A DNA stretch of 64,000 bases, from contig NZ_ATVJ01000001.1 of NCBI RefSeq assembly GCF_000420665.1, positions 2,241,588 to 2,305,587 of the forward strand. Direction: 5' to 3'. The notes beneath the pieces are model-generated. The model was not told the origin of the DNA and did no database searches. It worked only from the letters and a program-made list of their open reading frames with translations. Positions 17,927 through 18,571 of this stretch are shown here, one piece after another. Numbering within the stretch: the first letter of the stretch is position 1; every line of letters starts with the position of its first letter. The position numbers and the translations under genes are program-made. The DNA comes from Ponticaulis koreensis DSM 19734. GTDB lineage: Bacteria > Pseudomonadota > Alphaproteobacteria > Caulobacterales > Hyphomonadaceae.

Positions 17927-18002
17927 TGGTGCCGCCACCAAGATTCGAACTCGGGACCTGATGATTACAAATCAACTGCTCTACCAACTGAGCTATAGCG
18001 GC
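17927..18002 (-). tRNA. tRNA-Thr (anticodon TGT), CCA encoded
   Basis: The acceptor GCCGCTA (17996-18002) pairs with TGGCGGC (17931-17937, one G-T pair). The D-arm GCTCAGTTGGTAGAGC, anticodon loop TTTGTAA and T-arm CCGAG-TTCGAAT-CTTGG are normal. Discriminator A (17930) is followed by an encoded CCA (17927-17929). The anticodon stem GTTGA/TCATC has a T-T mismatch at the second pair. The island abuts the 3' end, so this is the probable attachment target. Its own promoter is at 18019-18047. Confidence 0.95.
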
Positions 18003-18018
18003 ACATCTTGAAAGCGCA

Positions 18019-18047
18019 GAACTAGCGAACCCGCTTTCGTAAATCAA
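18019..18047 (-). promoter_or_regulatory. promoter of tRNA-Thr
   Basis: On the minus strand TTGATT (18042-18047), a 17-base spacer and TAGTTC (18019-18024) lie 17 bases ahead of the tRNA 5' end. The same geometry recurs before both partial tRNA copies. Confidence 0.55.
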
Positions 18048-18059
18048 GAAATAAATTTT

Positions 18060-18097
18060 TGTGGATAAAACTTACACAAAAACTTACACAGTTACAC
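18060..18097. repeat. DnaA-box and TTACACA repeats, copy 1
   Basis: A perfect DnaA-box consensus (TTATCCACA on the minus strand, 18060-18068) is followed by TTACACA-type repeats to 18097. The block recurs 190 bases away. Confidence 0.6.
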
Positions 18098-18148
18098 GTT
18101 TTCTCTTCTAAAATGCCTTATAATTCAGTTATTTGTAGCATAGAGCTT

Positions 18149-18190
18149 ATGATTACAAATCAACTGCTCTACCAACTGAGCTATAGCGGC
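18149..18190 (-). repeat. partial tRNA-Thr copy (5' half), unit B
   Basis: Forty-two bases identical to the 5' half of tRNA-Thr, from the acceptor 5' strand through the anticodon arm. After TAATCAT the tRNA sequence is replaced by AAGCTCTATGC, which can pair with GGTAGAGC of the D-arm. A promoter of the tRNA type precedes it (TTGATT 18231-18236, 17-base spacer, TAAAGG 18208-18213). It cannot make a tRNA but is probably transcribed. Confidence 0.85.
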
Positions 18191-18249
18191 ATTTTACCAA
18201 AGCGGCACCTTTAGCGAACAAGGAGCCTTAAATCAAGAAATTATGTTTT

Positions 18250-18287
18250 TGTGGATAAAACTTACACAAAAGCTTACACACTTACAC
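18250..18287. repeat. DnaA-box and TTACACA repeats, copy 2
   Basis: The second copy of the 18060-18097 block, with the perfect 9-mer at 18250-18258 and three TTACACA-type repeats after it. Confidence 0.6.
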
Positions 18288-18338
18288 AGTTTCTTAGTTT
18301 TTTATCCTTACAATACAGCCGCTTAGCGCATAGAGCTT

Positions 18339-18380
18339 ATGATTACAAATCAACTGCTCTACCAACTGAGCTAAGCCGGC
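18339..18380 (-). repeat. partial tRNA-Thr copy (5' half), unit C
   Basis: The third copy of the tRNA 5' half, identical over 35 bases from the anticodon arm and diverged at the acceptor end (GCCGGCTTA). It shares with unit B the replacement AAGCTCTATGC after the anticodon arm. Promoter-like TTGCCA (18421-18426), a 17-base spacer and TAAGAC (18398-18403) precede it. Confidence 0.85.
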
Positions 18381-18571
18381 ACTGGTAAAGAGCGCGCGTC
18401 TTACCGAGTTTGATCGGGTCTGGCAAGTGCTTCTGACAACTGTTTTTCAGAAATTTTTTCTGGAGCCGATTCAGCTGTTTATAACTATCCCAAGATTGCC
18501 ACATTTGCGCCTCGGAACAATCGGGTTGTTCATTCATTAATTCTGTACGGCCCAATGGGTTGGAGGCAATA

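Follow-up and report, generated by a model that had tools for sequence, protein, structure and literature searches.

A tRNA-Thr half-gene array in Ponticaulis koreensis as the probable trace of tRNA-dependent integration by mobile islands

An array made of one complete tRNA-Thr gene and two promoter-bearing tRNA-Thr 5' halves in Ponticaulis koreensis DSM 19734 is very probably the right-hand end of a mobile island that integrates in a tRNA-dependent manner, where a second element used the replacement tRNA of the first as its attB. The array lies in a window of 64,000 nucleotides (contig NZ_ATVJ01000001.1, positions 2,241,588 to 2,305,587). We propose that such an island cuts the native tRNA-Thr(UGU) gene at the anticodon, leaving a promoter-bearing 5' half at one end and the 3' half at the other, neither of which would be completed. 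The cell would then live on a complete tRNA-Thr with a promoter of its own, located on the island some 150 bp inward of the right end. As it holds an intact core, this replacement tRNA would in turn become a new attB. An earlier element, A, the form of which is still found in the related genome G006, would have sat in the native gene. A diverged element, B, corresponding to the present island, would then have recombined at the replacement tRNA of A. Loss of the body of A would have left a 188-bp scar composed of the 5' half of A, its promoter and its attP arm.

The tRNA-Thr copies, the empty site and the island

The three copies are on the minus strand and only one of them is a complete tRNA, with anticodon TGT (Table 1). 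A stretch of 34 bases is identical across the intact tRNA and both half copies. The array of three tRNA-Thr 5' halves described in an earlier note on this DNA stands, with spacings of 188 and 190; in 100 shuffles, no 5'-half copy arose by chance. As that note also described, a promoter-like hexamer pair with a 17-base spacer precedes each copy at an equal distance (TTGATT-17-TAGTTC, TTGATT-17-TAAAGG and TTGCCA-17-TAAGAC, minus strand). The matches are weak and a generic sigma-70 scan calls none of the three pairs. Both partial copies run on after the anticodon arm into the identical sequence AAGCTCTATGC, in agreement with the earlier description, and GCTCTAT of this extension indeed pairs with the D-arm sequence GTAGAGC in predicted folds. 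The acceptor regions of the partial copies are different. The copy at 18149-18190 has GCCGCTATAGC, as in the intact tRNA, whereas the copy at 18339-18380 has GCCGGCTTAGC, as in the native tRNA of relatives. This difference, absent from the earlier note, is the key to the locus.

Table 1 Features of the tRNA-Thr locus and of the island. Window positions are given unless a contig or locus is named; roles are those of the proposed history.
Feature	Position	Strand	Remarks
Right part of the ~36-kb island	1-17926	.	Reaches left beyond the window to G000:C1:2223332
Tyrosine integrase	L035:1662-2855		PF00589, phrog_1; beside the native 3' half
83-aa ORF at the right end of three Thr elements	17527-17778	+	In L006, L007, L008
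Complete element-borne replacement tRNA-Thr(UGU)	17927-18002	-	ARAGORN and Rfam; acceptor GCCGCTA/TGGCGGC
Intact att core (anticodon stem-loop) within the replacement tRNA, putative fresh attB	17962-17975	.	34-base identity
Spacer B: putative attP right arm of the present island, replacement-tRNA promoter and AAGCTCTATGC	18003-18149	.	
TTACAC(A) arm-type repeats in spacer B (putative)	18072-18078, 18084-18090, 18092-18097		
Displaced 5' half, replacement tRNA of the earlier element A	18149-18190	-	Acceptor GCCGCTATAGC
Spacer A: putative attP right arm of the earlier element and its tRNA promoter	18191-18339	.	G006 identity
Three TTACACA repeats in spacer A	18262-18268, 18274-18280, 18282-18288		
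Displaced 5' half, native chromosomal tRNA-Thr	18339-18380	-	Acceptor GCCGGCTTAGC; matches the G003 intact native tRNA and right flank
Native tRNA-Thr promoter region, TTGCCA-17-TAAGAC	18381-18440	-	Same sequence upstream of the G003 intact native tRNA

We searched 101 related genomes for the locus. Copy number among strains, a comparison that the earlier note had named as a check, is one unit or none in the same-genus relatives and two in the window. In G003, a genome of the same genus, the site is empty: an intact tRNA-Thr bears GCCGGCTTAGC and a matching 3' half. Its promoter is the outermost hexamer pair of the array, and the right-hand neighbour, an OmpA-family gene, is common to the empty site and to the window locus. 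In the window genome, the native 3' half is present once, about 36 kb to the left (G000:C1:2223297-2223344), and a tyrosine integrase gene directly adjoins it (left end G000:C1:2223297-2224655). This position beside the integrase indicates that the integrated DNA spans from there to about position 18150. The 3' half of the intact gene reads GCCGCCACCAAGATTCGAACTCGGG while the native one, at the far end of the island, reads GCCGGCTGCAGGAGTCGAACCCGCG. The difference, together with the location of the intact tRNA within the element, shows that this tRNA is distinct from the native gene. Both island junctions stay broken and neither of them forms a tRNA. The chromosomal flank to the left of G000:C1:2223297 (L187) is not syntenic with G003 and also differs from the flank in G006. 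The left junction is therefore defined solely by the native 3' half and its core, and the sequence suggests a further rearrangement or insertion at this flank.

Forty tRNA genes were found and typed in the genome, including a weak one without a readable anticodon. Thr anticodons are GGT, CGT and a single TGT. The target is thus single-copy: the complete tRNA-Thr(UGU) of the window is the only one found in the genome, the native gene being broken. In G006, in G004 and on one G005 contig, as here, the element carries a complete tRNA whose isotype and anticodon match those of the target. With the native gene broken, ACA codons are expected to be decoded by the island copy; the host would rely on the island for this Thr codon, and the replacement tRNA may be needed for survival.

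Two elements, one scar

The state with a single spacer, composed of the native 5' half, one spacer and a complete replacement tRNA, is observed in G006, G004 and one G005 contig, while the window has two spacers. The G005 contig may be a contamination, suspected because the same bin also holds the empty site. Spacer A agrees at 150/150 positions with the right end of the lone G006 element, and spacer B matches spacer A at 112 of 140 positions (80%). The body of the window island aligns in blocks to the G006 element, which is split over two contigs, with mostly 88-95% identity where alignable. These spacer and body identities place the present island in a lineage separate from the spacer-A element. 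A 3' half matching 18149-18190, which would mark the inner junction of A, is absent from the genome, and we infer from this absence that A was lost. Loss could have occurred via integrase-mediated recombination between like ends or via homologous recombination. The element-borne tRNA has an intact core and is itself a landing site, which would explain that the second island landed there; the integrase presumably catalysed both events. Identity in the right flank is 98-99% over 300 bp, then about 90%. In view of this drop, the scar may have come by recombination or laterally, together with its flank, rather than vertically. The proposal of the earlier note that the array represents scars of repeated integrations is upheld: the empty site, the two ends of the element, the integrase gene and the relatives with one element all speak for it.

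A variant of this history treats the 188-bp unit as a mini-circle. The integrase would have joined the replacement-tRNA core with the native-5'-half core of an A-type element, thereby releasing a circle made of spacer A and a 5' half, and this circle would afterwards have entered a resident B element at its right end. The two cores of the one G006 element are indeed in direct orientation, 190 bp apart, and a circle inserted at the right end of B yields exactly the observed order. However, no such circle was seen and the variant takes one step more than tandem integration followed by loss of A, so that we consider it unlikely. Much less can be said for duplication of the tRNA 5' half and its promoter by unequal crossing over. 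The nearly equal spacings, 188 and 190, would fit, but the spacers are merely 80% identical whereas one of them matches an element end in another genome at 150/150 positions; moreover, the copies have different acceptor sequences and the native 3' half is 36 kb away, beside the integrase. The comparison with G003 and G006 contradicts this explanation, which we rejected as having next to no chance of being correct. The same comparison led us to discard, as hardly conceivable, the mechanism put forward in the earlier note, in which the element brings a 5' half and promoter alone and the chromosome provides the 3' half of the intact gene. The 5' halves do bear promoters and are displaced on the 5' side, as that mechanism has it. 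The junction, though, is not rebuilt: a whole replacement tRNA is carried, and the intact gene has a 3' half (GCCGCCACCAAGATTCGAACTCGGG) unlike that of the native gene (GCCGGCTGCAGGAGTCGAACCCGCG), the latter lying some 36 kb off at the far end of the island.

Besides being scars, the promoter-bearing halves might have been kept as functional small RNAs, either as tRNA mimics or as transcripts closed by the attP flank. The halves with their flanks are predicted to fold into long hairpins (z of -2.1, -3.6 and -2.3 versus shuffles), the D arm finds its pairing partner in GCTCTAT, and no decay of the halves, which the earlier note had considered for close relatives, is seen in G006, G005 or G004. 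With shuffling limited to the spacer, however, spacer B gives a strong excess (1/300) and spacer A a weak one (26/300). The D-arm pairing belongs to the symmetry seen around the core, explicable by integrase binding, and recent integration suffices as a cause for the absence of decay. Promoter preservation, previously taken to argue against pure decay, loses its weight because one of the promoters is that of the native tRNA and the others drove element tRNAs, so that selection for small RNAs is unneeded. On the basis of the predicted folds, a small-RNA role for the halves is possible; it is not needed by the data, and we regard it as quite improbable.

Recombination sites, island genes and known systems

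Comparison of the two ends of the G004 element with native genes of the G002 type places the crossover within GATTACAAATCAT, that is, the anticodon stem-loop. The native allele of G004 differs next to the anticodon stem and this narrows the core to 13 bp. Two flanks of the core belong to the element, AAGCTCTATGC (AAGCTCTCTGC in G004) and, opposite to it, TAACAACC. Joined, they form a palindrome, TTATGATTACAAATCATAA, around the core. TTACACA repeats flank the core on both sides, in the right-end spacer and, at the left end, upstream of the integrase. Such an arrangement would be expected of arm-type integrase sites, and the repeats are putative sites of this type. In 398 genomes of the order, the junction GATTTGTAATCATAAGCTCT is confined to this genus, with one occurrence per single-element genome and two in the window genome. 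This junction search at element ends, an idea of the earlier note, identifies the shared extension AAGCTCTATGC as the attP flank closing every element of the Thr kind. Searched for in viral contigs, the junction gave two AT-rich, unrelated matches; the plasmid search gave short tRNA-like matches only. In both spacers, the sequence TGTGGATAA (reverse complement TTATCCACA, a DnaA-box match) is found beside the arm-type repeats, at 18060-18068 and 18250-18258. More TGTGTAA / TTACACA repeats are present inward of the replacement tRNA, at 17834-17857.

The island encodes a MobF-type relaxase, a TraD/TraG-like (coupling-like) protein, AbiE, ArdC, Gabija and ArdA. Integrase, relaxase and AbiE are located left of the window, in the left part of the island. 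No phage structural gene was found among the larger ORFs scanned, indicating that the island is not a temperate phage. Alongside the integrase and the MobF relaxase, both of which an integrative and mobilizable element would have while lacking mating-pair formation genes, no VirB4-like protein was found among the large ORFs and the part of the small ORFs that were scanned. The 83-aa protein encoded at the right end has no Pfam, PHROG or NCBIfam match and is a possible candidate for an excision factor. The Gabija defence pair (GajA, GajB) is within the island, at 9394-13508 of the window (+), and an AbiE-type toxin-antitoxin pair is near its integrase end (L035:3754-5434, +). Anti-restriction genes are also found on the island, ArdC-like at 8108-9166 and ArdA at 13671-14294 (+); they would fit transfer by conjugation.

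Tandem integration at a shared att site followed by partial loss leaves an att-flanked remnant, as in cis-mobilizable remnants. The present locus has in common with these the insertion of an element at the end of another at a shared att, then partial loss. In contrast, only 188 bp are left here and the replacement tRNA carried by the element itself serves as the new attB. tRNA-dependent lysogeny, shown by experiment in mycobacteriophages, is described for these and other actinophages, with Fionnbharth, Gabriela and Gaia as examples (Guerrero-Bustamante and Hatfull 2024; PMC10865867), and the authors speculated on a second integration with the element's tRNA as attB. The island shares with that system a tyrosine integrase, an attB in the tRNA anticodon region, arm-type sites flanking attP, a core too short for rebuilding the tRNA and a complete cognate tRNA on the element. 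It differs in being a relaxase-bearing Hyphomonadaceae island in which no phage genes were recognised, in its target, tRNA-Thr(UGU), in its integrase, which gave one 23% match in 50,697 phage records, and in the natural trace of a second integration. By analogy, the island would work like tRNA-dependent lysogeny, yet without being a lysogenic phage. On the proposed history, the locus extends tRNA-dependent integration, known experimentally in actinophages, to relaxase-bearing alphaproteobacterial islands and brings natural evidence for the predicted second integration in an element's own spare tRNA. In the canonical tRNA-site islands catalogued by Islander, a fragment in attP rebuilds the tRNA and there is one displaced end fragment (PMC4383910). 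Tyrosine integrase, anticodon-loop crossover subsite and a displaced tRNA fragment marking the end are common to both cases, but the present island has displaced the two native halves alike and brings a whole spare gene with it. Island finders expecting a rebuilt tRNA and one displaced end fragment may misread such loci.

Related integrases and their tRNA targets

The integrase is common to 12 of 150 genomes (E below 1e-30). We drew 80 relatives of it, at loci that are not independent, from a genome collection. Two main states were distinguished. In the rebuilt, canonical state (15 loci), the tRNA upstream of int is complete (Phe, Arg, Met, Asn, Lys or Gln) and no tRNA follows int in any of the 15. 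The rebuilt-target loci without a spare are L113, L115, L124, L110, L139, L144, L148, L149, L153, L161, L171, L177, L179, L182 and L184. In the broken state, the 5' half of a tRNA-Leu, severed at the anticodon loop, is upstream of int (48 loci, 45 with enough sequence to be scored). A complete tRNA-Leu comes after int in 39 of these 45, mostly within about 200 bases. The 39 spares comprise 12 cases of CAA with CAA, 26 of UAA with an intron-containing gene and one of CAA with an intron-containing gene. In 27 of them, a group I intron interrupts the gene in the anticodon loop and splits the att core; Rfam RF00028 exceeds its curated cut-off in G099, L127 and L134 and scores 36.8-47.2 bits (cut-off 50) in L132, L168 and L169, the remaining assignments being made from a conserved sequence motif only. 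Intron-interrupted tRNA-Leu(UAA) spares directly after int are found at L109, L111, L114, L118, L119, L123, L126-L134, L136-L138, L140, L141, L151, L159, L165, L167-L169, L173, L174 and L180.

Within this integrase family, spares are seen in Leu and Thr elements only. In the integrase tree, the three Thr elements form one well-supported clade; its placement close to replacement elements of the CAA type is less well supported, and the state labels are mixed along the tree. No ladder of extra tRNA-Leu halves was found in the 80 loci; re-integration is thus documented for Thr elements only. We tentatively offer a reading that we hold to be conceivable but rather less likely than its failure: carriage of a whole spare would commonly take the place of target rebuilding in the integrase clade (Alphaproteobacteria, Acidobacteria, Planctomycetes and Verrucomicrobia) and the spare, as a new attB, would be a liability. 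In tRNA-Leu(UAA) spares, the intron would split the core and immunise both spare and element against a further integration, whereas the unprotected Ponticaulis-type Thr elements would show the outcome, a ladder of promoter-bearing 5' halves. If true, group I introns in tRNA anticodon loops would be under selection to block att sites on mobile elements; the survey offers a testable reason for their presence in tRNA-Leu(UAA) on mobile DNA. We found no published link between tRNA-Leu group I introns and integrases in the literature searched, a negative that carries little weight. The novel points are a relaxase-bearing island as the setting, the natural trace of a second integration and the link of tRNA-Leu(UAA) spares to group I introns that lie in the att core.

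Six further integrase loci (L157, L164, L160, L176, L178 and L135) display a short core (GACTCAAAA or GACTTAAAA) with TTACACA-like repeats on both sides and no tRNA half. These are apparently unintegrated attP forms.
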